From: an uncultured Bacteroidales bacterium
Lineage (GTDB): Bacteria; Bacteroidota; Bacteroidia; Bacteroidales; Paludibacteraceae
Direction: 5' to 3'
DNA length: 64,000 nt
NCBI GenBank assembly: GCA_902800215.1
Contig: CADCDS010000002.1
Span: 62,001-126,000 of the forward strand
This document shows, piece after piece, positions 13,461 through 59,114 of the stretch. How positions within the stretch are numbered: position 1 is the stretch's first letter; each line of letters starts with the position of its first letter. The position numbers were made by a program, and so were the translations under genes. The notes beneath the pieces were generated by a model. That model made no database searches, was not told the DNA's origin, and worked only from the letters and a program-made list of their open reading frames with translations.

Positions 13461-16400
13461 GATCTTCACGATCGTATGACCGCCCTCTGCATTGCAGAGC
13501 GCCGTATAGACTCCCGGAGTAGCACGCCTACCATCCGGGAGTTTTCCGTCCCAGACAGCTGTTCCGCCGTGACTGCGCGTCTTGCAGACCAGGTTTCCAC
13601 CTGCATCCACGATGTTAACCACCGTATTTTCCATCAATCCCGTGATGCTGATCATACCGCCATAATCCGGTCTCACCGGATTCGGGAACGCATAAGCGTT
13701 ACTCATCGTCTCTTGCGCCTCACTGGCATCACTGCGATAGGATGCGATACCCTTATCCGTACCGACAAACACCTCACCAGTCTTCGGCATGATAGCGATA
13801 GACTGCACACCGTTCGACGGCAGCAGACTGTTCGTCTCCGTGAAATGCGCGATGGTGATCGTGTCGTCTTCGATCAGATACAAACCCGAGTTGGCGGTTC
13901 CGATCCACATGCGGTTTCCTCCGTCCACTGCCAGGCAGTTGATCTGCTCGTCGCCTAACAGATAGTCACCCAGACCCGTTCCGTCATTTCGAGGAATAAT
14001 AATCCGTTTGCATGCACTCGAACTGAAGAAGTCCACCTCCTTCGGGATCAGCAGCAGACCCTTGTCTGTACCGATCCAGATGCGGTTGGTATGATCTTGC
14101 GCAAAGCAGCGGAAATGATTCGGCGTCAGCACATTGCCGTTCTGATCGGTAAACGAACTGCGTGCCATGCAGCGGTCATCGCCGCTCATCGTCGGTGTGC
14201 CGTTATCGTCCAATAAAATCAGACGCGGTGTCGCCCGTTGATCCATCATCCATTTCCGGTTACTGTTCCGCTGATCCACCCATATGCCGGTCGGTGTGGT
14301 GAACTCCAGATCCGTTCCTCCGCTTCTCATACGCAGTCCGATCCATTGACCGGCTGCCGTTCGGATATGCAGCGGCTGACCGATCTCCGTCGCGTTCATT
14401 ACCCACAGGTTGCCCTGCTCGTCCGTCATCGCACCGTCCGTTCGCGTGAAATAATAGTCACTCGCGCTGTTTCCCGTCTTGCGCAAGGTACTGTTACTGC
14501 TGTCATAATGCGTCACGGCGCGGTTGTTCTTAAACTCAAACACACCGGTTCCGTAAGTAGCCACAAAGAAATGTTCCGGATCCGTCGCATCTACGGCGAA
14601 CTGCACCGCATCGCGTATGTCATGGTTCGTAAAATACCATGTGTCCGGCCAAGGAATACCGGTCCATTGTTGCCCGTCGTAGATACTCAGACTGCTCTGC
14701 CGAGCATACTGTTCCGACCAGCGTCCACCCGGCGATACATACAGCCGGTCATGGGCGACATCCAAGTGATAACCGAAGTTACTCAGCGGTCCTTCCGGTT
14801 GGAAACGGTCATCGCCGTTCGCACCCAGACGCACCAATCCCTTACTCTCTTCTGCGATCCAGTACACGCCGTTCGTGTACACGGCATCCGTCGCTACATA
14901 GGTGCTCGTCAGACCCGACAGCGTGTCATCGTCCTGCAGTCGGAACAGACCCTGATTCTTCACATAAACTAACATTTGTCCGTCGCTCACATGCATCCAA
15001 CGGATCGGTTGACCGCTTACCAACTGCCAACTCGTGCCGGCACGCCGGTATAACGAGTCATGCGCCAACACATACAACTGTCCCTGATGCGTCTCGGCCT
15101 GTTGAACCTGCTCAAACGGGATGGCTTCACTCGCCCAATAGTTGTAATCCACTAAGTTATTCGCCAGCGACGCCTTATACATCCGGTCAAACGAGAAGGC
15201 GAACAGCGAATCGTTCATTTCCACCACTTCTTGCACCTCGATCGACGCCGCCTCATTGCCGATATAATAGGTGTCCGTCACCTCGCCTTTGCGTACCTGA
15301 ATAGCGATGATACCAAACGGCATCGCTAAGTAACTGTACTTGCTGCCCACACAGATAGCGTTGATCGTCACGGCGATCGAACCCGCCTTCATCGAGATAT
15401 CCGGCATCTGTGTCACATGGCCTTCCTGGTCCAGCAAGTCTATCTGACCGTTCTCGTACGCGATGATCAACCGCTCGGCACCTTCGTCATACGCGATGTG
15501 TGCCACCGAACTGCCGTTCAGACCCGTCGCTTTGCTCCAATAGCTCAACTGATCATCCGCCTTGTCCACACTGAACAACGCACCGTTAGCCGCTGCAAAA
15601 ACAGCGTTCGGCGTTGCTGCTATCTCTTCCGGGTTAGAGTAGGACAGATGCAACCGCCAACGAAGCATACTGCCATCATTAAGCGAAGCGTCATCATTCA
15701 TCAATTCATCATTTTTCAACCCTTCATCAGTCCCCTGCGGATTGTATTCCACCAGACCCTCCGACGTGCCGAACCAGATATGTCCGTCTTCTCCTGCTGC
15801 CAATGCCATGATCGCGTTGTCCGGCATCGCCGAGTTATCCGTCGTGAAGTGCGCCAGGATCTCCGTCATCTCCTCATTCATCTCGTACACACCTAACTCC
15901 GTACCGATCCATAGATGACCGTCCGGCGACTGACAAATCGCCTTGATTTGCTGGGTCGTTAACGGATTCTCGCCGTTGATATCCGTCACTTCCGGCAGCA
16001 GGATCGCATCCTCTGCAAAGAAATCCGTGTTAACCTCTATCGCACCCAACCCGATCTCGGTTGCTATCCACAGCCGACCCGTTCGGTCCTGCATCAATCC
16101 ATAGATCATCGTCGGACGGAAAGTGTGACCGTGCTGGTCCGTCCATTCGCTGCGAATGATCGTGCGGTCGTCAGATGTGTCAAACGCTGTCCCGTGATCG
16201 TCCATTAGGCATACAAACCGGTTATACCGTGCCGTGCAAAGCCATTTGTAATTCGGGCGAATGCGGTCTATCACCAATCCGCCCGGTGTGTGTAACGCTA
16301 AGTTCTGATTATCAGCCACAACCGTTAACCCATGCCACGTGCCGTCTGCCGCCTTGCATTGCAACTGACCCTCCAACGCGGCATCTAACATCCATAAGTT

Positions 16401-17516
16401 ACCCCCTTCGTCATACTGAACATAATCCAAACGGGTATAGATAGTCGGTTGATCGGGAACAATAGCCGTCAGACTGTTCTCTCCTCCGGCAATGTCGGCA
16501 CGAACCAGCGAATCGCCCATAAACTCATACAAACCCGTTCCGTAACTGGCTACATAGAAATGGTTCGGATTCTGCGGATCGATAGCCACTTGCATGAAAT
16601 CCGTTGCCTGCCGGCCGGTGACGGACCGGATCGCTTCCGACGATATGTTGTTCCATCGTTCTCCGTCATACCGCATCACGCAACCCGCTTTGTTATATTG
16701 TACGTCCCATCGTCCGCCTTGCACCACATACACCTTGCCGCCTTGCGTGAAGATCCGATACGGACTGTTCACCATCGGTCCGTCCGGCTTGTAACTCAAC
16801 CGCTCCGTCTGCGTAAACCGCACGATACCCTCTGCGTTGCTGGCGTACCAATGACTCGTCTCATCCTGGTAATGCTTGCCTTTCTCGCTGTCCGGCTGGA
16901 TCCGTTCCGATCGCTTCTCCCGTTTCCAAACGGTATAATCCACTATGTTATCGCGCATCGATGCCGCAAACAGACTGTCCGTCGTGAAGGCATAGATACT
17001 ATCATTAGCCAGCAACACATCCTGCACGTCCGTTTCCTGACCACCCGGTCTTAACCAGTAGCTGTTCACCAGCTTATTCTCTCGCAAATCCATCGTCTGC
17101 ACACCGAAAGCGGTGCTCAGATAAGCGGTCCTACCGGCGATCGTCACGTTATGGATCGTCTTGCGCTGCGTCATGTCTTTGTCATACATCTCCCCGATAT
17201 ACCGCACGCCCTGCGCCGTCAGAATATCTATCTTACCGGTTCCGTAACCGATAATCAACTGCTTGCCCGTCGCGTCATAATGGATACACGTGATACCCGT
17301 TCCGCTTAGACCCGACTGACGGTTATACACCGCTATCTTCTCGCTCTGTTTCTCTACGCTGAACAGACTGCCGTCTGAGATCGCATACACCTTATCCGAC
17401 GACATCGCTATCTGCGTCACATTGTTGTACGCAAAATGTGTCGTCCATTTCTGCTCTGCCCTTGCCGTCCATACGAACAAAGAACAGAAACCTATTACCA
17501 ATAACCTATAACCCAT
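13446..17516 (-). CDS. PorZ-like T9SS protein with tandemly duplicated beta-propeller halves
   Basis: This is a 1356-residue exported protein. The signal peptide (MGYRLLVIG to TARA) is followed by [14 protein letters not shown], the start of a PorZ-type beta-propeller region. After about 590 residues the same region begins again ([16 protein letters not shown]), with matching order of blocks: ALFSVDK versus [19 protein letters not shown] versus [12 protein letters not shown], and [12 protein letters not shown] versus [12 protein letters not shown]. The C-terminal ~85 residues are a T9SS sorting-like domain (AYAFPNPV ... ATPGVYTA). PorZ of Porphyromonas is a surface component of the T9SS attachment complex, about 780 residues with a single copy. 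This protein is therefore about twice the usual length. The start is the ATG at 17516; the TTG three codons upstream lies in a repeat tract. Confidence 0.82.
15691..15730. repeat. degenerate 7-8 bp tandem repeat (ATTCATCA type) at the PorZ duplication seam
   Basis: About five imperfect units of TTCATCA. It encodes an Asn/Asp-rich linker (residues about 595-608) exactly between the two copies of the propeller region. Confidence 0.75.
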
Positions 17517-17520
17517 AACC
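17491..17520. repeat. heptad repeat CCTATAA encoding part of a signal peptide
   Basis: Four units (CCTATTA, CCAATAA, CCTATAA, CCCATAA) plus two bases. On the minus strand it supplies the start codon and the first nine codons of the PorZ-like protein. Confidence 0.85.
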
Positions 17521-17565
17521 TTCAAACCTTCAAACTTTCAAACCTTCAAACCTTCAAACTCTCAA
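17519..17565. repeat. octad repeat CCTTCAAA between rdgB and the PorZ-like gene
   Basis: Six units of CCTTCAAA with few changes. It encodes the last residues and the TGA stop of rdgB and fills the whole 29-nt gap before the PorZ-like start. Confidence 0.9.
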
Positions 17566-18205
17566 CTAGCGCCTGCAGCGCTCTTGCCCTATGACTAATC
17601 CCGTTCTTCACTTCTGCCGGCAGTTCGCCGAATGTCTTATCGTATCCTTCCGGAATAAACACCGGATCATATCCGAATCCGCCTTCCCCGTATTCCTCCG
17701 TCGCGATCCGTCCCCGCACAACACCTTCTACTTGCAAGGTATTGTGCCCTTCGGTCGCATTTTTGCGACCGCCGATCAACGTGATCACCGTCCTAAACTG
17801 CGCTCCCCGGTCTTCTTTTCCTTCCAACTCCCGCAGCGCCTTTGCCCGATTCGCCGCAAAAATCTCCCTTTCCGATAATTGCCCATTATCCAATTTCCAA
17901 TCTCCATTATCCAATTGCAAATACCACCTTGCGGTATAAACTCCCGGTTTTCCGCCTAACGCATCGATCTCCAATCCCGTATCATCCGCAAACACTCCGT
18001 CAATTGTCCAATGTCCATTGTCCAATATCCAATGATAAACGGCCTCCGCCTTTATCCCGCTATTCTCCTCCAGCGTCGTGCCTGTCTCCTCGATCTCCTG
18101 TTCGAAACCGATATCCCGTAAACTCAGTACCTCAATACCTGCCGGCATCATCGCCCGCACCTCGTCTAACTTATGCGCGTTATTGCTTGCAAAAACCAAT
18201 CTCAT
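17546..18205 (-). CDS. rdgB: dITP/XTP pyrophosphatase (HAM1 family)
   Basis: RdgB hydrolyses non-canonical purine triphosphates (dITP, XTP) to monophosphates and keeps them out of DNA. SNNAHKLDE (residues 7-15), ADDTGLEIDAL (73-83), GFGYDPVFIPEG and SHRARAL are all present. The 219 residues exceed the usual ~195. The excess is two tryptophan-containing loops (about residues 59-70 and 95-110) encoded by heptad repeat tracts; they flank conserved strands without touching the active-site motifs. The start overlaps the stop of the aspartic protease gene by 4 nt. Confidence 0.95.
   Translation of the reverse strand: MRLVFASNNAHKLDEVRAMMPAGIEVLSLRDIGFEQEIEETGTTLEENSGIKAEAVYHWILDNGHWTIDGVFADDTGLEIDALGGKPGVYTARWYLQLDNGDWKLDNGQLSEREIFAANRAKALRELEGKEDRGAQFRTVITLIGGRKNATEGHNTLQVEGVVRGRIATEEYGEGGFGYDPVFIPEGYDKTFGELPAEVKNGISHRARALQALVESLKV
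17880..17926. repeat. heptad repeat (TATCCAA/TTTCCAA) inside rdgB
   Basis: About six degenerate heptads. In frame they encode residues 95-110 of RdgB (LQLDNGDWKLDNGQL). Confidence 0.85.
18001..18035. repeat. heptad repeat CCAATGT inside rdgB
   Basis: Five units: CAATTGT, CCAATGT, CCATTGT, CCAATAT, CCAATGA. They encode RdgB residues 58-69 (HWILDNGHWTID). Confidence 0.9.
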
Positions 18206-19281
18206 AATCCTGCGTTTTTGGCTAATTTCTCGTATTTTTTTGCTTTCTCTTCGTTGTCATTATGCCGGTACCATTTGCCCAGATGTTCTAACAGTCTCGC
18301 CAGGTCCGCATTCGGCTCTATCGCGTGGTGTTCCAGCCATTCCCACGTATGCGGTGCCAGCAGATAATTCGCATAATTCAAGGTCGCCTGTTCTGCCTTC
18401 GAATACTCTTTCGTCTGCCAGTATAAATAACACAACGTACTGTACGCATACTCCAATCCGCGTTCGTACACCGGTTCTTTCTTCGACTCACGCATCAGCG
18501 TCTTCAGCGCCTCCTCGCATTCCGCATATGCCTCTTTGTTATACAACTGATCCGCGTAGTTCAGCCGTGCGTTCAGCAGCCGTTTCTGGATCTTGCCCTC
18601 CTCATCAAAATACGCGGTGTTTTTCAATAACTGCTCATAAACCGGAATCGCTTCCCCGTCTAAATTACTGTACTCTAACGCCTGCGCGTATATAATAAGG
18701 TGTCTCGGACTCAACCGTTCCGCAAACGGTCGCAATGCGTCCGCCATTCGCTTGTTCGCCGCAAACGTCGTGTCGTTGCAGTACTGTCCGGCTAACGCTA
18801 ACGCTTTCTGTTCGTCTTCCGGCTTTGGGGTAAACATCCACTCGTTGCCGCGTATCGTGTAACTCTCCAAACGTCCGAAGACCGACTGCCCGAACAGTGG
18901 ATCTGCGTCCGGTCGGTCATTCACGCCTAACGATGCCCGCACGTTACGCATCACATAATCCCCGATCTTCAGGTACTTGATCGTAAACGTCCGTACGTCA
19001 TGCATCTCGCCGTTCGCCAACTCCGCTTCACTCACTTCCGACAAATCCGACCACTGCACGGCTCCTTTCTTCACTAAGGCGTCAAAGATCTCCCGGTTCA
19101 CCGTCAGCGACGAACAACCCGTGTCAAACGTGAAGTCCACCTTCAACCCCTCCACAAACGCCGTCACGTGCTTGTTGCCACTCGATGACTCTTTCAGCGT
19201 CACCTTATATTCCGCTTGTATCGTCCCCAGGCTCATCCACCCAAGAACCAATAACCATATATACCGTAACCTGTAACCCAT
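18202..19281 (-). CDS. exported retropepsin-like aspartic protease with C-terminal helical repeats
   Basis: This is a 359-residue protein. A signal peptide ends near residue 23 (GTIQA). A retropepsin-like domain follows: FDTGCSSLTV with catalytic Asp53, and LFGQSVFGRLESY, which resembles the end of single-lobe bacterial aspartyl proteases. Residues ~165-359 are TPR-like helices (YAQALEYSNLDGEAIPVYEQLL, LNYADQLYNKEAYAECEEAL), a likely protein-binding platform. It lies between the OmpA-like gene (12-nt gap) and rdgB (4-nt overlap). A periplasmic or surface location is expected. Its substrate is unknown. Confidence 0.82.
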   Translation of the reverse strand: MGYRLRYIWLLVLGWMSLGTIQAEYKVTLKESSSGNKHVTAFVEGLKVDFTFDTGCSSLTVNREIFDALVKKGAVQWSDLSEVSEAELANGEMHDVRTFTIKYLKIGDYVMRNVRASLGVNDRPDADPLFGQSVFGRLESYTIRGNEWMFTPKPEDEQKALALAGQYCNDTTFAANKRMADALRPFAERLSPRHLIIYAQALEYSNLDGEAIPVYEQLLKNTAYFDEEGKIQKRLLNARLNYADQLYNKEAYAECEEALKTLMRESKKEPVYERGLEYAYSTLCYLYWQTKEYSKAEQATLNYANYLLAPHTWEWLEHHAIEPNADLARLLEHLGKWYRHNDNEEKAKKYEKLAKNAGL

Positions 19282-19298
19282 AACCCGTAACCTTTATT
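19241..19298. repeat. heptad repeat CCGTAAC spanning a gene junction and signal peptide
   Basis: Units CCAAGAA, CCAATAA, CCATATA, a 2-nt slip, then CCGTAAC, CTGTAAC, CCATAAC, CCGTAAC, CTTTATT. It covers the protease signal peptide codons, its start and the gap to the OmpA-like gene. Confidence 0.85.
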
Positions 19299-20790
19299 TG
19301 ACGAATCTAATTTCCACTCTCCGATTCATTCGCCTTCCTTCTTCGCTCTCGTTGCTCGTGATCGGCTTGCTCTCTCCGTAACCTTTCGCACGTAACCGGC
19401 TTCCGTCAATTCCGTGTTCCGTCAACCATGCTAACACCGCTTTCGCACGCATTTCCGATAACTTCATGTTCGCCGCGTCCGAACCTACATTGTCCGTGTG
19501 ACCCCCGATCTCCACCTTGTACGGGTGATCCGTCAGGATCCCCACCACGCGCTCCAACTCATTGATCGAAGCCGGCTGAAGTGCCCATTCGTTCGTGTCA
19601 AAAAACAGGTTGTTTAGCGGCATCGGAATCTCCTCCTCGATCATCTGCTCGATGCTCGTCACCACGATATCGTTCTCGATCTGCACGGCTTCGCTCTTCT
19701 CCCTTAAATCAATATTATTCGCGATTGGAAACAGATTCTCGTCGTCGATATAATACCCGTAGTTTTTCCCTTCCGGCAGCACGATAAAGAAACTGCCGTC
19801 CGTCGGATCCGTCTGACTTTGTCCCACCTGTTCATGGGTCTCCAGGTTCTCCCATTTCAGCACCGTCACCACCGGTTTTCCCTCTGAGTCCGTGATCTTA
19901 CCGGAGATCGTCGCTACCTGTTCCGGTCGCAGATGCTCAGGAATCGGCAAGGTGTACAGGTCGTACATATAATCCTTCCCTTCTTTGGCAAAATAGGCCA
20001 ATTTTCCGTCTGTCGAGATCTTGTACCAGCAGTCTGTTCCCACCGTGTTGATCTCTTTGCCCAGACTCACCGGCTCGCTCCATTCCGTCCAACTGTCTTC
20101 CCGCAGACGCGTACTCATATATACGTCCAGTCCGCCTCGTGTCGGACGTCCGTCGGTACTGAAATAAAGCGTCTTCATATCCGGATGCAGTACCGGCGAA
20201 CGATCCGTAAAATTCGTATTGATCGTCGGTCCCAAATCAATCGGTTCTCCCCATTCGCCGTTCTCGTCTAACTCTGATACAAAGATGTTTACCGACTTAA
20301 TCGCTTCATAATCACCTTGTTTCTTGGCGGCAAAAAGCATTGCCTTGCCGTCACTCGTCAGTACCGCGTCTGCCTGCCAGGGAGAGATATTGATCTTATC
20401 CGACATCTTCACCGGTTTCTGCCAGCCTTCCGCCGTCTTGGTTGCTGTACAAAGCATACCGTCTTGGAACAAGATCATCGTTGTCCCGTCTGCCGACAGC
20501 GCTAACGGCGCCTCGTTCTTCTCTTTCTCGCATAACTCATACAGCGGCTCCGCTTTTCCCCAGCCTTCCTCCGTCCAATGGGAGATATAGATGTCCTCGC
20601 CGCCTACGCTGTCTTCCCGGAAACGACCGCAGAACAACAGCGTCTTTCCGTCTGCCGATATAACCGGCACATACTCGCTTCCTTCCGTGCTGTTGATCGC
20701 CTCACTCATCCTCGTCACCACTACTTTTTCTTCTCCCTGCACATATATCGCTCCGCAGACCAGGATGCCAATTAAAAAAACTTTTTTCAT
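19294..20790 (-). CDS. OmpA-family peptidoglycan-anchoring protein with PD40 propeller repeats
   Basis: This is a 498-residue exported protein (signal peptide about residues 1-19). Residues 35-290 hold repeated PD40/WD40-like blades (VISADGKTLLFCG, LALSADGTTMIL, VLHPDMKTLYFSTDG). A short carboxypeptidase-like beta domain (ATISGKITDSEGKPV) follows. The C-terminal OmpA domain (about 390-498) shows GGHTDNVG and LSEMRAKAV ... RRVEIRF, which bind peptidoglycan. The architecture recalls T9SS-associated PorE/PorX-type proteins of Bacteroidota, which link the trans-envelope complex to the wall. With a PorZ-like gene in the same operon, a T9SS role is plausible but not proven. Confidence 0.88.
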   Translation of the reverse strand: MKKVFLIGILVCGAIYVQGEEKVVVTRMSEAINSTEGSEYVPVISADGKTLLFCGRFREDSVGGEDIYISHWTEEGWGKAEPLYELCEKEKNEAPLALSADGTTMILFQDGMLCTATKTAEGWQKPVKMSDKINISPWQADAVLTSDGKAMLFAAKKQGDYEAIKSVNIFVSELDENGEWGEPIDLGPTINTNFTDRSPVLHPDMKTLYFSTDGRPTRGGLDVYMSTRLREDSWTEWSEPVSLGKEINTVGTDCWYKISTDGKLAYFAKEGKDYMYDLYTLPIPEHLRPEQVATISGKITDSEGKPVVTVLKWENLETHEQVGQSQTDPTDGSFFIVLPEGKNYGYYIDDENLFPIANNIDLREKSEAVQIENDIVVTSIEQMIEEEIPMPLNNLFFDTNEWALQPASINELERVVGILTDHPYKVEIGGHTDNVGSDAANMKLSEMRAKAVLAWLTEHGIDGSRLRAKGYGESKPITSNESEEGRRMNRRVEIRFVK

Positions 20791-22142: not shown

Positions 22143-22168
22143 CCAATATAATTACATGCAAAAACTAG

Positions 22169-22216
22169 TGCGTGATAAGTACGAGATAAGTGCGATATTT
22201 GTGCGCGATAAGTGCG
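22169..22216. repeat. four 11-bp iterons, consensus TGCGnGATAAG
   Basis: Units start at 22169, 22180, 22191 and 22202, exactly 11 bp apart, followed by a partial fifth (TGCG). The third unit is the most degenerate. The one-helical-turn period suggests a protein-binding array about 115 bp upstream of the giant gene's -33 box. Confidence 0.65.
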
Positions 22217-22362: not shown

Positions 22363-22402
22363 CGCCCACTTTTTGTATTTACATACATACACGCATACAC
22401 CT

Positions 22403-25400
22403 ATGAACGTGAAAAGATTTATTCATATATGGACGATCGCTATATTGTTCCTCCTTTTGGACGTCAATGTAGCCAAAGCAGCTTCTTCCTGTCCCCTCGA
22501 CTCGGTGCTGACTTATGATATTAATTCCGTACTGACCGAAGTCACTATCTACGATGCCGTAGAGGATACTTCCCGTACCACCGTTTGGACCGTCAATCCG
22601 AACGGTACCCGTGTCGGTAAATCCCGTGAAGAGTCCTATTCCTCTTCCCTCAAAACCATGACGGCTTCCTACGAATGGGATAATTCGACCCATAATTGGA
22701 AAGGTACCGATAAGAAGGAGTATGTCTATAAGTATTTCGCCGGTAAAAAGAAACAGATTTCCGAAACTACCTTCAAGTGGATTAATGCGAAATGGGTAGC
22801 TGACCAGCGCAAGACCAATAACTACGATGACGCGGCACGGGAAATTGAGTATTTTGAGTATAACCGGAATACCACCACGAACCAACTGCAACCCATTTCC
22901 GGTTATCGGTACGAGTGGATAGACGATACGCAAAAATCGATGGAGGAGATCCATACCTCTTATTCCAATGGTGTATTAACCGCCGGTACTAAGAAAGAAT
23001 GGGCCTTTGATGACGAAGGACACCAAACGATGTATGCTTATTATAGCACGGTCGTCGGAGGTAAATTTGTTGGTGACTCCAAAGAAGAATGGGGCTTTAC
23101 GGATAATGTGCAGACTATGCATGCTACCTATGTATGGGCGGATGTCGAATGGGCAGGAGTGCTCAAAGAGGTCTTGGTCAATGACTCCTTAGGGCGTGCA
23201 ACGCTCCATGAGACCTATGATTGGTATAACAGCGACTGGTCTATGACCCTCCGCGAGATTGCCGCTTTTGACGAAGCGGGTCATCAGATTCTCATAGAGA
23301 ACTATACGGGCGAGAATGGTGTGCCAACAGGAACGCAGAAAGAGGAATATGCCTATTCTGGGGATACTCTCATCTTGAGCATTGTGTACAAATGGTCGGC
23401 TTCGAAAATTAACTGGATCGGTTCGACGTACGAGAAATGGGAATACAACGGTCCTACCGGAGAAAAGACTTATTACGAAAAACAAGTCTGGAGAAACAGC
23501 GCATGGGGAGACTCAATCCAGGAAATCTGGGAGTTTAACGGTCCGAGTAATCAGCAGACCCTGCACGAGAAATACGTGTGGAATAAGGATGCGGCATCTC
23601 TGCTTCCGAATTTGGAATATACGGATGAGTATGACAGCGATGATCATCTGATCCGAAAAGAGTACTACACCTTTACGAATGGCGTAAGGGTGGGAAAAAC
23701 CTATTATACCTATACCTATGAAAACGGCAAGAAGACGGCTTATACCGTCTATGCATGGGAGAATGGTGCATGGGTAGGCGATAAGAATGAGATTTGGGAG
23801 TTCAATGGTCCTTCAAATAAGCAGACCAAACATGAGAAGTTTGTTTGGGAGAATGACGAATGGACAACGACGTTACTCGAAATCACTTCCTATACCGGCA
23901 GTTATGCAACCCTAAAGGAAAAATATGAGTTGGTAAATGGCGTCTTGATCGGTACAGAGAAGGAAATTTATTCTTACAACGGCAGCAAAAAGATAGAATC
24001 CATTGTTTATAAATGGGTGAACAATGCGTGGGTTGAAGATACGAAGGACACCTGGGATCCATCTTCCACCAAGCCGACGCTTCATGAGCAATTTACATGG
24101 AATGGCGAATGGGTAAAAATCCTTCAGGAGAATACCACCTATTCCGGCAGTAATAAAACACTTGTCGAGAACTACGCGCTTATAGAAGGCGTATGGACGG
24201 GGACCGAAAAAGAAACCTGGGCATATTCGGGCAGCCAACTTACGAAGCATGAGCAATTCGCTTGGGAAGGTGATTGGGTGAAAACTCTGGAGGAGAATAC
24301 GACCTATGATGGTAGTAATATAACTGCTATTGAGAATTATGCGCTCTTAGAGGGCGTTTGGACCGGTACAAAGCGGGAAGAATATACATATGATGGCAGT
24401 ACAAAAACCTTAGAACTCATCTACCAATGGTATAACAACGCCTGGATGTATCAAACCAAAGAGGAGTGGGCTTTCGATTCTGGTCATCAGACTCTGCATG
24501 AGAAAGATGGCTGGAACGGGGCGGAATGGATACCGATGCAGCGTGAGGTAGCTGCTTTCGATGCAGAAGGCAATCAGACTTTGGTGGAGAACTACGTGCT
24601 CTATACAACTGGATGGACGGGAATCAAGAAGGAGGAATATACCTTTGAAGGCAGCATCCAAACCTCGGCAGTTATTTATAGGTGGAATACGGATGATTGG
24701 ATACCCTTCACTAAAAGCGAGAGTGGCTATACTGACGGCAATACTGAGGTTTCTGCAACCAACTATATATGGAATGTGAATACCTGGACTGGTATCGGAA
24801 ATCGAACTTTTACTACTTATGATGAGGCAAATCGCGTGACAGAGATGATTGCGCAAAATTGGCCCGCAGGTGCAACAGAGTGGACAAACTACACACTAAC
24901 GCAAAATACCTATAATACAGATGGCGTAAATGTATTGATGTATAATGCGAATTGGGATGGTGTACAATGGGTTATGAGCTCAATGCAAAGAACAGATATT
25001 ATCATAGATGACGAAGATCGCCAACTCTTACATGCTTCTTGGCAGTGCGGTGCCAATGGTGTATGGACAGGAATTCAGAAAGATACGGCGGCTTATTCGG
25101 GTACTGGAATGTTGCTCTATATGGCGCATTATAACGGCTGGAAGAACAATGATTGGATTCCGGCTACCATGACGCACTATGTATATGATTCGGAGGATAG
25201 AGTTCTCTTGAAGGAGAGTTATGTGGGGGCAAATAATAATTGGAAAGGAACTTTCAAATATGAATATACATACGATGATCAAGGACGACAGACTTCTTAT
25301 GCTAGGTATAATAGTTGGAACACATCTACAAATTCATGGGTGGGAGATACGAAACAGGAGTATGTGTACTACAAAAATTATAAAGATAAATATGTTTCTA

Positions 25401-41795: not shown

Positions 41796-41813
41796 AATCG
41801 CTTAATTTGGGTG

Positions 41814-41844: not shown

Positions 41845-41852
41845 AAAAAATG

Positions 41853-41892
41853 CCAAAAAATTTGGTCAGTTCAAAAAAAAGCAGTACCTTTG
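41853..41892 (+). promoter_or_regulatory. promoter of tRNA-Leu and rpsU with a dyad over the -33 box
   Basis: TTTG (41861-41864), 20-nt spacer, TACCTTTG (41885-41892); CCAAA-AAA-TTTGG (41853-41865) overlaps the -33 box. The spacer is almost identical to those of the toxin-antitoxin and rpsO promoters. Confidence 0.85.
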
Positions 41893-41915
41893 CAGCCGCT
41901 TTTGACAAAAAGCAA

Positions 41916-41995
41916 GCCCAGGTGGCGGAATTGGTAGACGCGTTGGTCTCAAACACCAATGGGAAACCGTGCCGGTTCGATCCCGGCCCTGGGTA
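41916..41995 (+). tRNA. tRNA-Leu (anticodon CAA)
   Basis: The acceptor stem GCCCAGG pairs with CCTGGGT (first pair G-U), then discriminator A. The anticodon stem TTGGT/ACCAA encloses CTCAAAC with anticodon CAA, reading UUG. A short class II variable arm (TGGGAAACCGT) and T arm GCCGG-TTCGATC-CCGGC follow. CCA is not encoded. The rpsU start is 21 nt downstream with no terminator between, so both come from one transcript that needs processing. Confidence 0.95.
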
Positions 41996-48274: not shown

Positions 48275-48293
48275 ACTAATTAGATTTAATTGA

Positions 48294-48322
48294 TCTATAA
48301 TTTATCATCTATCATCTATAGA
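48294..48322. repeat. short heptad repeat CTATCAT between trxB and ssb
   Basis: Units TTATCAT, CTATCAT, CTATAGA; it includes the trxB stop codon. Confidence 0.7.
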
Positions 48323-53042: not shown

Positions 53043-53459
53043 ATGAATCTGATTCTGATTTCAATGGGAGTGTTGGGTGTGATCAGTTTGGCAGCTGCCG
53101 TGCTGCTGTACTTTGTCAGCCAGTACTTCAAAGTTGAGGAAGATCCCCGTATTGACCTGGTGACGGCCGTGTTGCCCGGTGCAAACTGCGGCGGATGTGG
53201 ATTTGCCGGATGCCGTAACTTTGCGGAAGCATGTGTGAAGGCAGGCGGCATTGATGGTTTGGCCTGCCCTGTAGGCGGAGAACCGACCATGGAACAGGTG
53301 AAACTGATTCTCGTTCCTGCAGAGGAAGCTGCGGATGCACCGGCGGCTGAAGACGGAGAGAAGAAAGGTTTTGACCCGGTTATTGCAGAGAAAATCAAAG
53401 CTTTGGCGACGCCAAAAGCTGCGTTCCCGTATCACATTAGTATGGCACAGAAATTATGA
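53043..53459 (+). CDS. rnfB: RnfB lacking its ferredoxin domains
   Basis: RnfB is the membrane-bound iron-sulfur subunit of the Rnf complex, which moves electrons between ferredoxin and NAD while pumping ions. Here only 138 residues remain: one transmembrane helix (about 5-25) and the single-cluster domain GANCGGCGFAGCRNFAEAC ... LACPVGG. A linker rich in Ala/Glu and the tail AFPYHISMAQKL follow, then stop. Usual Bacteroidota RnfB proteins are about 290 residues with further [4Fe-4S] ferredoxin-type clusters after this domain. No remnants are seen; rnfC begins 4 nt before the stop, so the short form looks genuine. Confidence 0.88.
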   Translation: MNLILISMGVLGVISLAAAVLLYFVSQYFKVEEDPRIDLVTAVLPGANCGGCGFAGCRNFAEACVKAGGIDGLACPVGGEPTMEQVKLILVPAEEAADAPAAEDGEKKGFDPVIAEKIKALATPKAAFPYHISMAQKL

Positions 53460-54811
53460 GAACATTTAGAATAGGCGGTGTTCATCCGCATGATAACAAA
53501 CAATTCTCCGCTCACCAGCGTATCGTGGAGTGCCCGCTGCCCAAGCAGGCGATTATTCCTTTGGTGCAACATATCGGTGCACCGGCGCAAGCGGTGGTGG
53601 AAGTAGGAGCAAAAGTGAAAGTAGGCGAACTGTTGGCAAAAGCCGGTGGATTCGTTAGCGCAAACATCTGTTCACCGGTAAGCGGTACTGTAACCAAGAT
53701 CGATCAGGCTACCGATGCATGGGGTGCTCCGATGCAGTGTATCTTTATCGATGTAGAGGGCGACGTATGGGCACCGGAGATAGACCGTACGCCGGATCTC
53801 GTTCGTTCCTGTACGCTTGAACCCAAAGCAATCATTGACAAGATCGCTGCTGCCGGTATCGTAGGTCTGGGCGGTGCTTGTTTCCCGACGCATGTGAAAC
53901 TGTTACCGCCGCCGGGAAAGAAAGCCGAAGTGCTGATCGTGAATGGCGTGGAGTGCGAACCGTATCTGACTTGTGACCACCAACTGATGTTGGAGCATGG
54001 CGAAGAGATCATCGTAGGTATTCAGATCCTGAAGCGCGCGCTGGGTGTCGATCGTGCTATCATCGGTATCGAGAACAATAAGAAAGATGCTATTGCCCAC
54101 ATGCGTGATTTGGCGAAAACGCAACTCGGTATCGAGATCCTGCCGTTGAAACTCAAATATCCGCAAGGAGGTGAGAAACAACTCATTGATGCTTGTATCG
54201 GCCGTCAGGTGCCGAGCGGTGCGCTGCCGATTGAGGTGGGTGCTGTAGTGGATAATGTGGCTACTATCTATGCCGTTTATGAGGCAGTGCAGAAAAATAA
54301 ACCGCTGATCAGCCGTGTGATGACCGTTACCGGTAAGCAAGTGGCTAAACCGGGTAACTACTCCGTTCGTTTCGGTACACCGATCGATGAAGTGATTGCG
54401 CTTGCCGGTGGTGTTCCTGCCAATACGGGTAAGGTGATCGGTGGCGGTCCGATGATGGGACGTGCGATGGATCATACCGAAGGTATGCCGGCAAACAAGC
54501 GTCTGAGTGGTCTGCTCTTCTTGCCGGAAGCGGAATCGGTTCGTCCGGAGGAAGAGAACTGTATCCGCTGTTCGAAGTGCGTGCAGGCTTGCCCGATGGG
54601 ATTGGAGCCTTATCTGCTTCAACGCTTGAACGAACTGGAGATGTATGAAGAAATGGAGAAGCATGCAGTGATGGATTGCATCGACTGCGGTTGCTGTGTC
54701 TTCGCTTGTCCTGCCCACCGTCGTCTTTTGGACGGTATCCGTCCGGGTAAGGCGAAAGTGGGTGCCATGCTTCGTGAGCGTGCCGCTGCTGCCGCTGCTG
54801 AGAAGAAATAA
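53456..54811 (+). CDS. rnfC: Rnf complex subunit C
   Basis: This 451-residue soluble subunit binds NADH and FMN. An N-terminal barrel-like part (GGVHPHDNK, ANICSPVSGTV) is followed by GLGGACFPTHVK and the ferredoxin motif CIRCSKCVQACP (about 369) and CIDCGCCVFACP (about 408), two [4Fe-4S] clusters. The protein ends with an Ala/Glu-rich helix. It overlaps rnfB by 4 nt and is separated from rnfD by a heptad repeat. Confidence 0.96.
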   Translation: MRTFRIGGVHPHDNKQFSAHQRIVECPLPKQAIIPLVQHIGAPAQAVVEVGAKVKVGELLAKAGGFVSANICSPVSGTVTKIDQATDAWGAPMQCIFIDVEGDVWAPEIDRTPDLVRSCTLEPKAIIDKIAAAGIVGLGGACFPTHVKLLPPPGKKAEVLIVNGVECEPYLTCDHQLMLEHGEEIIVGIQILKRALGVDRAIIGIENNKKDAIAHMRDLAKTQLGIEILPLKLKYPQGGEKQLIDACIGRQVPSGALPIEVGAVVDNVATIYAVYEAVQKNKPLISRVMTVTGKQVAKPGNYSVRFGTPIDEVIALAGGVPANTGKVIGGGPMMGRAMDHTEGMPANKRLSGLLFLPEAESVRPEEENCIRCSKCVQACPMGLEPYLLQRLNELEMYEEMEKHAVMDCIDCGCCVFACPAHRRLLDGIRPGKAKVGAMLRERAAAAAAEKK

Positions 54812-54842
54812 AATGTCAAATATCAAATGTCCAATATAAAAT
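54811..54842. repeat. heptad repeat AAATGTC between rnfC and rnfD
   Basis: Units AAATGTC, AAATATC, AAATGTC, CAATATA, then AAATG, which includes the first two bases of the rnfD start codon. Confidence 0.85.
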
Positions 54843-55836
54843 GAAAAATTTTATTGTTGCTCCGGCTCCTCACGCTCATAGTGGCGATAGTATCCGCCGG
54901 AATATGCTTCTGGTCATTCTCGCACTGATGCCGGCTTATGTGGTATCGGTGATTGAGTTTGGTTACGGCGCATTGATTACAGCGGCTGTCAGTGTTTTGG
55001 CCTGCGTAGGCACAGAATGGTGTATCAGTCGTTTCTTGCTTAAAGAGAAAAAGCAGTCTATCGGTGATCTCTCTGCAGTACTCACCGGTCTTCTGTTGGC
55101 TTTTAACCTGCCGTCGAACATCGACTGGTGGATCATCCTCATCGGTGCGGTGGTTGCGATCGGTGTAGGTAAGATGAGTTTTGGCGGTTTAGGCCACAAC
55201 CCCTTCAACCCTGCCCTCGTAGGACGTGTGTTCCTGTTGATCTCCTTCCCGGCTCAGATGACCACATGGCCGTTGGCACAGGGATTTGACTCGGCGATCA
55301 TGGGACAAGCGGTTACCGATGCCAACACCGGCGCTACTCCTCTGTCTTTGATCGGTCAAGGTAAGATCGCTGATCTGCCTTCGCTTTGGGATTCGCTCAT
55401 GGGTGCTATGGGCGGTTCGTTGGGTGAAGTTTGTGCATTGGCACTTATCCTCGGCGGTCTCTTCCTGATTTGCACAAAAGTTATCACATGGCATATCCCG
55501 TTTGCTGTCATCGCAACGGCTGCTGCGTTTGCAGCGATCGCCGGCGCATTCGGTGGCGCACCGGAAGGTATGTGTACCGGTAAATATGTAGCATACGAAC
55601 TCCTCACCGGTGGTTTGATGCTCGGTGCATTCTTTATGGCAACGGACTATGTTACCTCTCCGATGACCGCTTGCGGTAAACTGATTTTCGGTTTCGGTAT
55701 CGGTTTCATCATGATGGTTATCCGTACATGGGGTAACTATCCGGAAGGTATGTCGTTTGCCATCCTTATCATGAACGCTTGCGTTCCATTGTTGAACAAA
55801 CTTCGTCCGATGCGTTTCGGCGAAAAACGTAAATAA
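54841..55836 (+). CDS. rnfD: Rnf complex subunit D
   Basis: This 331-residue integral membrane subunit has about nine helices. The covalent FMN site motif is TGATPLSL near residue 163. PLAQGFDSAIMGQAVTDA precedes it as usual. RnfD takes part in electron transfer across the membrane and ion pumping. It sits directly behind the repeat tract that joins it to rnfC, and 12 nt before rnfG. Confidence 0.96.
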   Translation: MKNFIVAPAPHAHSGDSIRRNMLLVILALMPAYVVSVIEFGYGALITAAVSVLACVGTEWCISRFLLKEKKQSIGDLSAVLTGLLLAFNLPSNIDWWIILIGAVVAIGVGKMSFGGLGHNPFNPALVGRVFLLISFPAQMTTWPLAQGFDSAIMGQAVTDANTGATPLSLIGQGKIADLPSLWDSLMGAMGGSLGEVCALALILGGLFLICTKVITWHIPFAVIATAAAFAAIAGAFGGAPEGMCTGKYVAYELLTGGLMLGAFFMATDYVTSPMTACGKLIFGFGIGFIMMVIRTWGNYPEGMSFAILIMNACVPLLNKLRPMRFGEKRK

Positions 55837-55848: not shown

Positions 55849-56523
55849 ATGGCTAAATTAGAAAGTACATTTAAGAATATGGCGCTCAGTCTGGTCATCA
55901 TCGCAATGGTGGCTGCGGCTGCTTTGGCAGGTGTTTATACCCTGACCAAGGACACGATTGAGGAGCAGAAAGCGGAGAAAGAACAGCAAGCTGTCTTTTC
56001 CGTTTTGCCGGAACAAGGTGTAGGCGCGGTGATTGTAGATACCATCATTTCTCCCAAATACGGACACACGGTTTATCGTGCTGAGAAAGACGGTGAATTT
56101 ATCGGTGCAGCGGTTAAGACGAGTGCTGTCGGTTTTGGTGGAAAACAGAACATTATGGTTGGTTTTGACGCCAACGGTATGATCGTCGATTATACGGTGC
56201 TTGATCATCAAGAGACACCGGGTCTGGGAGACAAGATCTCCTATTGGTTCAAAACCGATAACGGACGTCAGAATATCGTCGGCCGTTATGCCAACGGTGC
56301 TTTCCAGGTTTCGAAAGAAGGTGGTGACGTGGATGCTATTACAGCGGCTACCATCTCTTCCAGAGCTTTCCTCAAAGCAATCAACGAGGCATATGCTGCT
56401 TTCCGTGGTGATGAGGTAGAGGCTGCTACCAGCGCCAGCCAAGTGCACCACGAAGAAGTGGTTGCTGAGCCTGAAGAAGTAGTAGAGAATGATAATTTAG
56501 AAAAGGAGGCTGATTATGAGTAA
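55849..56523 (+). CDS. rnfG: Rnf complex subunit G
   Basis: This 224-residue protein has one N-terminal membrane helix and a periplasmic FMN domain. The flavinylation motif is DAITAATISS (about 161-170), with a Thr carrying the FMN; GLGDKISYWF precedes it. An acidic C-terminal tail (about 190-224) is extra. The start follows a clear Shine-Dalgarno (AAGGAGGT, 55836-55843). It overlaps rnfE by 8 nt. Confidence 0.95.
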   Translation: MAKLESTFKNMALSLVIIAMVAAAALAGVYTLTKDTIEEQKAEKEQQAVFSVLPEQGVGAVIVDTIISPKYGHTVYRAEKDGEFIGAAVKTSAVGFGGKQNIMVGFDANGMIVDYTVLDHQETPGLGDKISYWFKTDNGRQNIVGRYANGAFQVSKEGGDVDAITAATISSRAFLKAINEAYAAFRGDEVEAATSASQVHHEEVVAEPEEVVENDNLEKEADYE

Positions 56524-57109
56524 CGCTTTAAAAACTTTCACTAACGGTCTCCTCAAGGAGAACCCGACTTTTGTGCTGGTGTTGGGTATGTGTCCTACCT
56601 TGGCCACTACCACCAGCGCCATGAATGGTATGTCCATGGGTTTGGCTACGATGTTCGTGCTCGTTTGTTCGAACGTGGTCATCTCCATGCTCAAGAACCT
56701 TATCCCCGATAAAGTACGTATTCCGGCGTTCATCGTGGTCATCGCATCCTTCGTAACGCTTGTTCAACTGGCGATGCAGGCCTATGTGCCGGCTATCTAT
56801 GACGTGCTGGGTCTGTTCATCCCGCTGATCGTGGTGAACTGTATCGTGCTCGGTCGTGCGGAAGCGTTTGCTGCTAAGAACACGGTTGGCCTCAGTGCAC
56901 TCGACGGACTCGGCATGGGCCTGGGCTTTACGCTGGCACTCACCCTTCTCGGTGCGGTTCGTGAACTGCTCGGTTCCGGTGCTATCTTCGGTTTCCAGGT
57001 CTATGACGCAGGTTACGCTTCGCTGATCTTCGTTCTTGCTCCGGGTGCCTTCATCGCACTGGCTTACCTCCTGGCTATTGTTAACAAGCTCCAGAAGAAA
57101 GATAAATAA
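56516..57109 (+). CDS. rnfE: Rnf complex subunit E
   Basis: This 197-residue integral subunit has six helices. The half-motif LGMCPTLATTTSAMNG near the start carries the Cys that shares the membrane [2Fe-2S] cluster with RnfA. IVVNCIVLGRAEAFA is conserved. A Shine-Dalgarno (AAAGGAGG) lies 6 nt upstream, within rnfG. A heptad repeat joins it to rnfA. Confidence 0.96.
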   Translation: MSNALKTFTNGLLKENPTFVLVLGMCPTLATTTSAMNGMSMGLATMFVLVCSNVVISMLKNLIPDKVRIPAFIVVIASFVTLVQLAMQAYVPAIYDVLGLFIPLIVVNCIVLGRAEAFAAKNTVGLSALDGLGMGLGFTLALTLLGAVRELLGSGAIFGFQVYDAGYASLIFVLAPGAFIALAYLLAIVNKLQKKDK

Positions 57110-57142
57110 ATCGTACATCGTAAATCGTTAAATCGTAAATTA
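57110..57142. repeat. heptad repeat ATCGTAA between rnfE and rnfA
   Basis: Units ATCGTAC, ATCGTAA, ATCGTTA, one extra A, ATCGTAA, ending 2 nt before the rnfA start. Confidence 0.88.
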
Positions 57143-57144
57143 GT

Positions 57145-57750
57145 ATGGCATATTTCTTGATATTTATCTCTGCGATATTTGTTAACAATATCGTATTGAG
57201 CCAGTTCTTGGGTATCTGCCCGTTCTTGGGAGTAAGTAAGAAGATCGACACCGCCCTGGGTATGGGTGCTGCGGTAACCTTCGTACTCACGGTAGCCACG
57301 ATCGTAACATATCTGCTGCAGATCCTGTTGGTAAAATGGCATATTGAGTTCTTGCAGACGATCGTCTTCATCCTCGTTATTGCTGCGTTGGTACAAATGA
57401 TCGAGATCATCTTGAAGAAGATCAGTCCGTCGCTTTATCAGGCTTTAGGTGTTTTCCTTCCGCTGATCACGACGAACTGCTGTATCCTCGGTGTAGCGAT
57501 CATCGTAGCCGATCCGGAACAACTGATGGCGAAACTGCCGGGAGATGCACTCAGTGCTAACCTCCTTACCGGAACCCTCTTTGCCTTTGCTACCGCAATC
57601 GGTTTTGCTTTGGCTCTGGTGATCTTCGCCGGTATCCGTGAACAACTTGCCTTGGCTAAGATCCCGAAGGCAATGCAGGGCACTCCTATCGCCCTCCTCA
57701 CCGCCGGCCTCCTCGCCATGGCCTTCATGGGCTTCAGCGGAGTCGTATAA
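57145..57750 (+). CDS. rnfA: Rnf complex subunit A
   Basis: This 201-residue integral subunit is homologous to RnfE with inverted topology. FVNNIVLSQFLGICPFLGVS carries the cluster Cys, and PLITTNCCILGVAI the second. The operon order B, C, D, G, E, A is the common one. A strong terminator follows, so the operon ends here. Confidence 0.96.
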   Translation: MAYFLIFISAIFVNNIVLSQFLGICPFLGVSKKIDTALGMGAAVTFVLTVATIVTYLLQILLVKWHIEFLQTIVFILVIAALVQMIEIILKKISPSLYQALGVFLPLITTNCCILGVAIIVADPEQLMAKLPGDALSANLLTGTLFAFATAIGFALALVIFAGIREQLALAKIPKAMQGTPIALLTAGLLAMAFMGFSGVV

Positions 57751-57875: not shown

Positions 57876-57909
57876 TTTAGGAAACCTAAAATAGGTAACC
57901 TAAAATAGG
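57876..57909. promoter_or_regulatory. operator-like array in the ATPase 3 leader
   Basis: TTTAGG-AAA-CCTAAA (57876-57890) runs into CCTAAAATAGG (57885-57895), repeated at 57899-57909. Each 11-mer is itself a CCTA/TAGG palindrome. The array starts at the expected transcription start. Confidence 0.65.
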
Positions 57910-57941: not shown

Positions 57942-59081
57942 ATGAGCACAATGGAATACACAGAAAACCCGTTTTTAATACGTGGATTCTTGAAAGATGA
58001 ATGGTTCTGCGATCGTGAAACAGAAACGGAAAAATTGTTAAGTAACATTTTGAATGGTGTTGATACAACCTTGATTTCTCCCCGCAAATATGGGAAAACT
58101 GGCCTTATCTTCCATCTCTTTCATCGGGTAGAAGTGGAGAAAAGACCATTTAAATGCATTTATGTAGACCTCTTCCATACGCGCTCTTTAGAGGATTTCG
58201 TTAAGACTTTAGCTGATGAGTTAATCAAGTTCCCTCAACAGACTTCATTCGGACAGCGCGTATTGGATTTTATCAAACGACTCCGCCCTGTTTTTTCATA
58301 TGATTCGCTAACCGGAGATCCGCAGGTAAGTTTTACCTATCAAATGGAGTCAGAAAAAGAACAGAATTTGAAAAATATATTGGAGTTCCTTAATAACCAA
58401 CCGGAACAAATTATTCTGGCCTTAGACGAATTTCAGCAAGTAGTGGATTACCCTGAGAATATGGAGGCTATACTACGCGCGTATATTCAGAATCTACATA
58501 ATATCCATTTTATTTTCTCGGGCAGTAGACAATCCATGATGGCTGAAATATTCCTGTCTCCCAAACGACCTCTATTTTCGCAAACGCAGCAACTATCATT
58601 AGATAAAATTCCTGCGGAGAAGTATATGCCATTTGTAAAAGAACTTTTCCGTGAGGGCGAAATGGAAATAGAAGACGATGTGCTTCAGTTTATCATGGAT
58701 TGGACTAGAAGACACACTTACTATACCCAAAGCCTATGTAATAAAGTTTATTCTAAGCATCTATCCCGTGTGGATATTGAGACTGTTAAATTAGCTTGTA
58801 GCGAACTATTGGATGAGAACGAAAATAGTTACATGCAGTATAGAGAGCTACTCACTGCCCCTCAGTGGCAAGTCCTTATCGCGCTTGCTAAAGAAAAGCA
58901 AGTAGAGCAGATCACGTCCTCTGTATTCTTGCAAAAATATAATATCAGTGGAACTACGGCTCGCAGAACAGTACAATCATTAATTGATAAAGATTTGGTT
59001 CTTGCGCTCCCAAATAAAAGCCAAACGGCTTATCAGGTTTATGATGTGTTCTTTATGCATTGGTTAGCGAGAGAGTACTAG
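57942..59081 (+). CDS. AAA-type ATPase with C-terminal winged helix (paralogue 3 of 3)
   Basis: This is the 379-residue paralogue of the ATPases at 20804 and 32377. ENPFLIRGFLKDEWFCDR starts the protein; Walker A is ISPRKYGKTGLI (Lys52), Walker B is ILALDEFQQVVDY near residue 165, the sensor is FSGSRQSMM and the winged helix includes TTARRTVQSLIDKDLVLAL. A second ATG three codons later (57951) is equally good. The gene is AT-richer than its rnf neighbours. It is monocistronic and faces the secreted-protein operon across a terminator. Function unknown. Confidence 0.85.
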   Translation: MSTMEYTENPFLIRGFLKDEWFCDRETETEKLLSNILNGVDTTLISPRKYGKTGLIFHLFHRVEVEKRPFKCIYVDLFHTRSLEDFVKTLADELIKFPQQTSFGQRVLDFIKRLRPVFSYDSLTGDPQVSFTYQMESEKEQNLKNILEFLNNQPEQIILALDEFQQVVDYPENMEAILRAYIQNLHNIHFIFSGSRQSMMAEIFLSPKRPLFSQTQQLSLDKIPAEKYMPFVKELFREGEMEIEDDVLQFIMDWTRRHTYYTQSLCNKVYSKHLSRVDIETVKLACSELLDENENSYMQYRELLTAPQWQVLIALAKEKQVEQITSSVFLQKYNISGTTARRTVQSLIDKDLVLALPNKSQTAYQVYDVFFMHWLAREY

Positions 59082-59090
59082 TACGCATCT

Positions 59091-59114
59091 CGTCATCCCG
59101 TCATGACGTCATAA
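59091..59114. repeat. octad repeat CGTCATGA after ATPase 3
   Basis: Units CGTCATCC, CGTCATGA, CGTCATAA, starting 9 nt after the stop codon. The unit matches the tract inside the radical SAM gene at 35540. Confidence 0.8.

Follow-up and report, generated by a model that had tools for sequence, protein, structure and literature searches.

The short tandemly repeated repeats (STRRs) of cyanobacteria are built from a few fixed heptamer consensus words. The G-rich heptamers of Xanthomonas and Nostoc are described as mainly intergenic and as using few words (PMC4692102), and the preference of bacteria for this unit length has been ascribed to the footprint of the DNA polymerase (PMC4692102, PMC4679880). 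The subject of this report is a population of degenerate tandem repeat tracts with units of 7 or 8 bp in an uncultured Bacteroidales bacterium, noticed in a 64,000-nucleotide stretch of its genome (assembly GCA_902800215.1, contig CADCDS010000002.1, positions 62,001 to 126,000) that is referred to here as the window. The host genome containing the window (G000; 1.96 Mb, 85% complete) belongs to a genus with more than 100 sampled species, and its nearest named relatives are the Paludibacteraceae. Tract positions persist across species at fixed loops and gene junctions, and the word repeated at each position differs.

Tracts in the window and across the genus

Tracts were identified with Tandem Repeats Finder and with two lag-match scans, one using a strict threshold and one sensitive (score 10, or 9 and more for the window). 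With the score cut-off set at 9, lag matching returned 24 window tracts of period 7 or 8. Twenty order-2 Markov shuffles averaged 1.95 such tracts and never exceeded 5. This confirms the initial annotation, which had counted at least 22. At the strict threshold there were five period-7 and two period-8 tracts in the window and none in the 20 shuffles. Arrays called by Tandem Repeats Finder at 15691-59112 include CCATTCG, AAAATCA, CCAATCT, CGTCATCA, AACCTTCA, CTTGACG, TCTGTGT, and CCAGAAGA, for a range first proposed as 15691-59114; the first array of that range, at 15691-15711, is a weak 2.8-copy repeat below threshold, and one tract lies beyond the range, at 63320-63337. Fifteen of the 24 tracts fall in open reading frames (ORFs), seven at gene edges, and two between genes, close to the earlier estimate of about 16 coding tracts and five or six at junctions. 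This count includes six tracts reassigned to ORFs 35188-36348 and 36336-36974, both with Pfam domains, which the crude gene finder had missed; its own calls placed 9 of the tracts in coding sequence (CDS), 7 at edges, and 8 between genes.

The excess was also found outside the window. In 464 kb of G000 (the window and 20 further stretches of the same genome), the sensitive scan found 137 period-7 tracts against 1 in a single shuffle, and 37 period-8 tracts against none. Other periods were in excess as well: 33 against 1 for period 9, 18 against 0 for period 6, and 18 against 2 for period 11. Period 7 showed the largest excess among the periods tested (5 to 13). The strict scan of the same sequence gave 55 period-7 and 12 period-8 tracts, with at most four for any period outside the multiples of 7 and 8. 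Strict period-11 tracts numbered 31 and 23 in the sister congeners G145 and G146, respectively, and period-8 tracts only 13 and 12. Period-7 tracts ranged from 20 to 108 bp in length, and 97 of the 215 found in four samples lay within called CDS, which is a lower bound given that the gene finder missed some ORFs.

Also in the window was an intergenic 11-bp tandem repeat similar to GATAAGTGCGA (22167-22216). A similar word occurs in eight G145 and seven G146 tracts of the period-11 type (for example L150:15173-15220 and L155:11274-11322), and the use of one common 11-bp word suggests a putative binding site, unlike the 7/8-bp tracts.

A 4.5-kb query was matched in all 121 genomes of the genus that were searched, including the host. 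A protein search returned 71 loci, of which the nearest 42 were labelled Bacteroidales or Paludibacteraceae, several of them of ruminant gut origin. Under the strict threshold these 42 loci (342 kb) contained 64 period-7 and 13 period-8 tracts, and the 29 distant loci (213 kb) contained no tract of either period. Twenty stretches from congeners (400 kb; three of the 20 picked at CCAATCT matches) contained 34 period-7 and 4 period-8 tracts, at densities from 0 to 7 tracts per 20 kb. In 301 kb from other families of the order (20 stretches) there was no period-7 and one period-8 tract; with the sensitive scan this sequence yielded 12 period-7 tracts against 4 in a shuffle, a level that is low but not empty. 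The tract excess is genome-wide and largely genus-specific, and many congeners have it.

Fixed sites and changing words

Three of the window tracts lie in a single gene, which encodes a protein with a metallo-beta-lactamase (MBL) fold. Among 42 genomes, 20 have a tract at site A of this protein, built from 15 different units, and in 5 of these 20 the unit is 16 bp long. Site B could be scored in 38 of the 42 genomes and holds a tract in 23, with 17 different units; site C could be scored in 41 and holds a tract in 5, with 4 units. In the predicted structure (mean predicted local distance difference test score, pLDDT, of 93.6), most tract residues are in loops 50-55, 117-127, and 145-155, and the tract edges extend into the adjoining helix and strands. 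A plain insertion of 21 bp was rejected as the general birth event: site A spans 26-29 residues in proteins with a 7-bp tract and 22-29 in those without a called tract, lengths which indicate that a tract can take the place of loop residues already present and not only add to them. In some more distant genomes, 16-bp repeats similar to GTCAGCGAAGCGGTCT fill the same loops (site A in L099-L102 and L106, site B in L098), and these 16-bp repeats show 18-bp differences in coding length among relatives.

Similar patterns were seen in other genes. Both tracts of the HAM1 protein overlap gap positions of its two best solved homologs, and one loop of a second gene had a tract in 7 of 19 genomes, with 6 different alleles, and none in the other 12. 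It had been proposed that selection confines the tracts to loops and that they should appear as insertions relative to distant homologs. This was mostly so in the two proteins examined, MBL-fold and HAM1; distant homologs were without the residues, and tract density was far above that of shuffled sequence, so neither of the two outcomes that the initial annotation had given as refutations was seen. Of 33 tract-bearing sample genes, 19 were scanned for identity, and these include LigA, AlaS, RibD, PrmC, a pseudouridine synthase, a MurC-like ligase, PcrA-like and RecB-like helicases, a glutamate synthase subunit, a TonB-receptor-like protein, and a protein secreted by the type IX secretion system (T9SS). 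Units not divisible by three should be disfavored in coding sequence, yet they sit in genes such as LigA, AlaS, HAM1, and PrmC.

Comparison of the window with locus L067 showed that site A was rewritten with almost identical flanks, and that the tracts at 38419 and 39271 were unaltered. Across 35136-41974 the two sequences had long near-identical stretches interrupted by short diverged patches, a mosaic that looks as if recombination among lineages of the genus were frequent.

Tracts also differed between closer relatives. Over 8.6 kb, loci L078 and L082 share 96.6% identity, but their site B is not alike: L078, like L084, has an 8-mer tract there, and L082 a 7-mer tract with a different word. 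The intergenic tract following the MBL-fold gene has three different versions in L078, L082, and L084. The genomes of L078 and L082, which are G146 and G145 (the same genomes also carry the handles G083 and G088, respectively), were aligned over 228 kb at 95.3% identity. Of their 73 tract loci, 69 were scored and 4 were not, loci near block ends being left out. Fifteen loci were identical, 10 were substituted, 27 had changed in copy number, and 17 were replaced or absent in one genome; a plain period-7/8 tract was involved in 41 of the 69. That 54 of 69 tract loci differ between two 95%-identical genomes bears out the active process postulated in the initial annotation.

The expectation that coding tracts change by compensating, frame-keeping amounts was likewise upheld by length changes computed between matching anchors in G145 and G146. 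For periods 7, 8, 14, and 16, all nine length changes at replaced coding tracts (two of which overlap) were multiples of 3, against 5 of the 21 copy-number changes in non-coding sequence. Multiples of 7 or 8 accounted for 15 of these 21 non-coding changes; in coding sequence, the two genomes showed no copy-number change of the period-7/8 type. At other periods, 7 of 8 coding changes were multiples of 3, so that over all periods the figures were 16 of 17 for coding and 9 of 27 for non-coding changes. In other close pairs, not all of which are independent, 10 of the 11 tract indels in coding sequence and 3 of the 9 in non-coding sequence were multiples of 3. The single coding indel that breaks the frame is located shortly before an ATG, where the gene start may have been misplaced. 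Exact coding indels of 24 bp (3 x 8) and 21 bp (3 x 7) were found between close relatives.

In 77 of 97 coding tracts, the first unit contained no stop codon when read on the sense strand. Coding tracts had the C-rich strand as the sense strand in 79 of 113 cases; for tracts between co-directional genes the bias was opposite, with the G-rich strand as sense in 108 of 150 (Fisher p 1.7e-11). Stop codons can account for the bias in coding tracts. For the junctions, one guess is avoidance of C-rich untranslated RNA, which would invite Rho. The G/C strand asymmetry of the units themselves was extreme relative to random windows; relative to matched 7-mers the p values were 0.007 in G000, 0.25 in G145, and 0.07 in G146, and because it was significant only in G000, nothing is claimed from this asymmetry.

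Shared word lists and the origin of the tracts

Each lineage has its own vocabulary, common to its coding and non-coding tracts, with word order largely free. The 55 strict period-7 tracts of G000 comprise 37 distinct units, and 57 of 1485 tract pairs within this genome had exactly matching units, as did 36 of 3410 pairs between G000 and G145 and 19 of 3520 between G000 and G146. Exact matches were found in 231 of 1887 pairs within G145 and 196 of 2011 within G146, but within-genome sharing is inflated here because the G145 stretches, and some of the G146 contigs, were picked around matches to the word AACTTTC. The sister genomes G145 and G146 matched each other in 350 of 3968 pairs. When G000 was resampled with 98 tracts from other congeners, the 57 pairs compared with a mean of 26 (p 0.001), and with the window left out, 40 pairs compared with 20.5 (p 0.0085). 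Several sampled loci belong to the same genomes, which can only raise between-genome sharing in the pair counts. Word sharing in G000 was alike for coding x non-coding pairs (25 of 646) and coding x coding pairs (28 of 703); among the non-coding pairs of G145 and G146, matches were more frequent than among coding or mixed pairs. When tracts were compared with the rest of their own sample, the longest exact match averaged 18.2 bases in G000, 14.2 in G145, and 13.3 in G146, compared to about 12.6 for random pieces, and G145 tracts matched G146 at other sites no worse than they matched their own genome.

The explanation preferred here, with about an even chance of being correct, combines frequent slippage by 7-8 nucleotides with units passing from one tract to another and with alleles imported through homologous recombination, selection acting as a filter. 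Slippage-like gain and loss of units, mostly of whole units, would be the first and a well-supported step, as changes in unit steps are expected of slippage or unequal exchange. Selection within genes, as seen in the length changes, keeps almost only those that preserve the frame, at tolerant sites such as loops and with words that are mostly stop-free on the sense strand. Short ectopic exchanges may then carry words between tracts of one genome, by microhomology-mediated template switching or short-patch conversion between tracts as candidate routes, which would give each lineage a word list and leave the order of words in a tract mostly free. In addition, some alleles appear to have been swapped together with diverged flanks, as inter-lineage homologous recombination would do. 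The tracts would then be mostly tolerated by-products rather than the work of a dedicated system. The slippage named in the initial annotation fits the unit steps, but plain local slippage leaves the common word list and the replacement of words at fixed sites unexplained; since the vocabulary is common to one genome, slippage of local words cannot suffice by itself. More tentatively, the heptamer words may be a replicating entity that spreads from tract to tract by ectopic exchange, giving rise to lineage dialects and to loops that outpace the divergence of their genes.

Flank mismatch between G145 and G146 was 8.1% for replaced tracts against a background of 4.6%, and 4.8-4.9% for identical, substituted, and copy-number-changed tracts. 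Among the 17 replaced or absent tracts, flank divergence was above background in 11 and at or below it in 6. Import by homologous recombination probably also swaps tract alleles, and some replacements have clean flanks, such as those at L172:10214 (2 mismatches in 196) and L185:4517 (7 in 196). At L172:10214 a further genome, G147, carries the G145 allele, so G146 is the one that changed; at its right edge, however, the new allele is similar to G150 and G144, and it may have been imported.

Several results weigh against the combination of slippage, unit exchange, and import. Import from other lineages accounts for the 11 replaced tracts with diverged flanks without any ectopic exchange, and no donor-recipient pair is proven. 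In a test of unit order with 315 tracts, 134 matched better in true and 118 in reversed order (p 0.34), and a further test of 202 tracts gave 60 true against 71 reversed; G145 alone favored true order (58 against 32, p 0.008). Whole-tract copying between loci was therefore unsupported overall, and although complex tract words recur exactly at other places in their own genome, this was not counted as proof of copying, as the opposite order was common too. With unit order mostly unshared, ectopic exchange must go unit by unit or be scrambled afterwards. The excess of periods 9 and 11 indicates a process that is not purely 7/8. Transitions made up 0.59 of unit-to-unit substitutions in G145 and 0.65 in G146, compared to 0.63 for single nucleotide polymorphisms (SNPs), but the share in G000, 0.44, is below that of SNPs. 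Loss of mismatch repair was rejected as a cause, as MutS_I, the sole marker checked, was kept in 57 of 61 genomes including G000, and thus no known repair defect explains the activity.

A possible, though somewhat improbable, alternative is that local slippage and inter-lineage homologous recombination act alone, with no exchange between tracts of one genome. Heptanucleotides are reported to be the commonest long simple sequence repeats (SSRs) in most surveyed bacterial genomes, for which the polymerase footprint has been proposed as the reason (PMC4692102, PMC4679880), and the 11 diverged flanks, the mosaic of near-identical and diverged blocks in G000 and L067, the resemblance of the G146 allele at the L172 site to G150 and G144 at its right edge, and a unit order mostly not common to different sites all fit this simpler account. 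It does not predict a lineage word list at unrelated sites, which is unexpected if words are local, or the 6 of 17 replacements with flanks at or below background. Functional sites under selection, for example ones that are bound by an RNA- or DNA-binding protein or that control translation or Rho where two genes meet, are highly unlikely to explain the tracts as a whole: the opposite strand bias of coding and junction tracts points in this direction, and intergenic TAACTGA upstream of start codons has been proposed as regulatory in Beggiatoaceae (PMC4679880), but the words are diverse within a genome, are replaced at fixed sites, and also occur inside genes, and stop codons can explain the coding orientation without any function.

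Slightly less probable again, and very doubtful, is a dedicated enzyme acting as a diversity generator, such as an RNA-templated reverse transcriptase, a terminal transferase-like enzyme, or an end-joining polymerase. Whole words do turn up at fixed sites, in families with constant cores and variable positions, as such an enzyme might produce. On the other hand, RVT_1 (reverse transcriptase) had no match in G000, which is 85% complete, and was matched in just 5 of the 25 genus members searched; Ku was found in none of 61 genomes, other enzyme families not being part of the search; the targets are broad, with housekeeping genes (LigA, AlaS, PrmC, RibD) beside TonB-receptor-like and T9SS-secreted proteins; and 15 of 69 tracts are identical in G145 and G146. 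Together with a substitution spectrum that is SNP-like in two of three genomes, the missing RVT_1 and Ku matches leave the template-independent synthesis or diversity-generating repair pathway suggested initially without support. Least credible of all, to the point of being negligible, is an artifact of metagenome binning and assembly. Most genomes used here are metagenome-assembled, and short repeats may collapse; but period-7 tracts are mostly below the common short-read length assumed here, assemblies from differently named projects have an identical or nearly identical tract at a given site (L076 and L086 at site A; L074 and L075 at sites A and B), reading frames remain open, and several of the 29 distant loci free of tracts bear the names of the same collections (RGIG, metaWRAP).

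Tracts of this kind can be replaced while their flanks barely change, and they are one way in which loops of conserved enzymes evolve fast. The genus, with its many sampled species, is a natural experiment on how repeats are born, why the favored period is seven, and whether repeats exchange sequence across a bacterial chromosome. If words do spread by ectopic exchange, the loops of conserved proteins would be rewritten in the dialect of each lineage.

Comparison with described repeat systems

The tracts of the window are listed in Table 1. A 201-bp tandem duplication was also present, at 27546-27975, inside the large ORF 22373-29098.

Table 1. Period-7 and period-8 tracts and one 14-bp repeat of the window, in window coordinates; (-) marks genes on the minus strand.
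Repeat	Coordinates	Location	Remarks
Period 7, CCTATAA/CCAATAA	17490-17520	5' end of PorZ-like ORF 13446-17525 (-)	
Period 8, AACCTTCA	17517-17565	Junction, ORFs 13446-17525 / 17546-18205	
Period 7	17878-17922	HAM1/RdgB gene (-), residues ~95-110	Overlaps gaps of solved homologs
Period 7	17999-18033	HAM1/RdgB gene (-), residues ~58-69	Overlaps gaps of solved homologs
Period 7, CCCGTAA	19266-19292	Junction, ORFs 18202-19281 / 19294-20790	
Period 8	21929-21954	Gene edge	
Period 7, weak	30011-30031	Gene edge	
Period 7, CCATTCG	35445-35477	Radical SAM ORF 35188-36348	Other units here in relatives
Period 8, CGTCATCA	35539-35572	Radical SAM ORF 35188-36348	L074 and L075 differ by exactly 24 bp (3 units)
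Period 7, AAAATCA	35893-35928	Radical SAM ORF 35188-36348	L067 sequence differs
Period 7, CCAATCT	36468-36510	MBL-fold protein, ORF 36336-36974	Site A
Period 7, CCAATCT	36680-36714	MBL-fold protein, ORF 36336-36974	Site B
Period 7, CCAATCT	36772-36811	MBL-fold protein, ORF 36336-36974	Site C
Period 8 (ATGACGT)	38419-38448	ORF 37488-38738	Same in L067
Period 8, CCAGAAAA	39271-39303	Between ORFs 38704-39267 and 39344-41125	Same in L067
Period 7, GCCGTTA family	41466-41498	ORF 41103-41795 (-)	
Period 7, TCTGTGT	45899-45928	Glycosyltransferase ORF 45826-46857 (-)	
Period 7, CTTGACG	46351-46383	Glycosyltransferase ORF 45826-46857 (-)	
Period 7, weak (GACTGCT)	47911-47933	ORF 47813-48274 (-)	
Period 7, ATCTATC	48293-48319	Junction, ORFs 47813-48274 / 48316-49248	
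Period 7, AAATGTC	54811-54849	Junction, ORFs 53456-54811 / 54841-55836	
Period 7, TAAATCG	57107-57140	Junction, ORFs 56516-57109 / 57145-57750	
14-bp repeat (2 x 7)	57878-57909	Between genes	Outside the count of 24
Period 8, GTCATCAC family	59086-59122	Downstream of ORF 57942-59081	
Period 8, short	63320-63337	ORF 60678-63704 (-)	Beyond the range of the initial annotation

Several described systems resemble these tracts in part. The repeats of archaeal Borgs are also pervasive and fast-evolving, occur both in ORFs and between genes, and are under strong selection in ORFs (PMC9879509). However, Borg ORF repeats have units divisible by three that are virtually all unique within a genome (PMC9879509), whereas the units in ORFs here are of 7 or 8 bp and G000 alone has 57 exact unit pairs. 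Rickettsia palindromic elements likewise show that repeated DNA can be tolerated in frame in conserved genes, as well as between genes, but they are stem-loops of 105-146 bp with terminal inverted repeats (PMC2229807), and the tracts described here, which were not scanned for inverted repeats, are simple tandem arrays of 20-108 bp. Many heptamer direct repeats per genome are also known from marine Beggiatoaceae, and from some Bacteroidetes, in the form of TAACTGA; this is one fixed word, located mainly just upstream of start codons, and related heptamers are rarely repeated (PMC4679880). A diversity-generating retroelement would be expected to bring a reverse transcriptase, for which the 85%-complete G000 gave no RVT_1 match, template repeats not having been sought. 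Unlike the changes at phase-variable contingency loci, coding changes between species were multiples of 3 (16 of 17 over all periods, and 10 of 11 in other pairs).

A literature search, which did not reach other wordings or subscription papers, returned no report on this genus or of heptanucleotide tandem repeats in Bacteroidales. The tracts described here bring together heptamer units, positions in coding sequence, turnover of the words, and a vocabulary particular to each lineage, and no report of this combination was found in the literature searched. The closest described relatives of the tracts are the bacterial heptanucleotide SSRs and the cyanobacterial STRRs, which also consist of heptamers in few copies at sites common to relatives, and for which slippage has been proposed (PMC4692102); the length and sequence of heptanucleotide SSRs vary at such sites as well (PMC4692102). 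The reported trend for units of coding SSRs to be mostly divisible by three (PMC4679880) does not hold here, with nearly half of the period-7 tracts (97 of 215) in CDS. The small set of words typical of STRRs is also lacking, given 37 units among 55 G000 tracts. In their many unit types, large in-gene share, whole-word replacement, and additional octamers, these tracts are unlike heptanucleotide SSRs; in their 7-nucleotide excess and in whole-unit changes of copy number between close relatives, they are like them.

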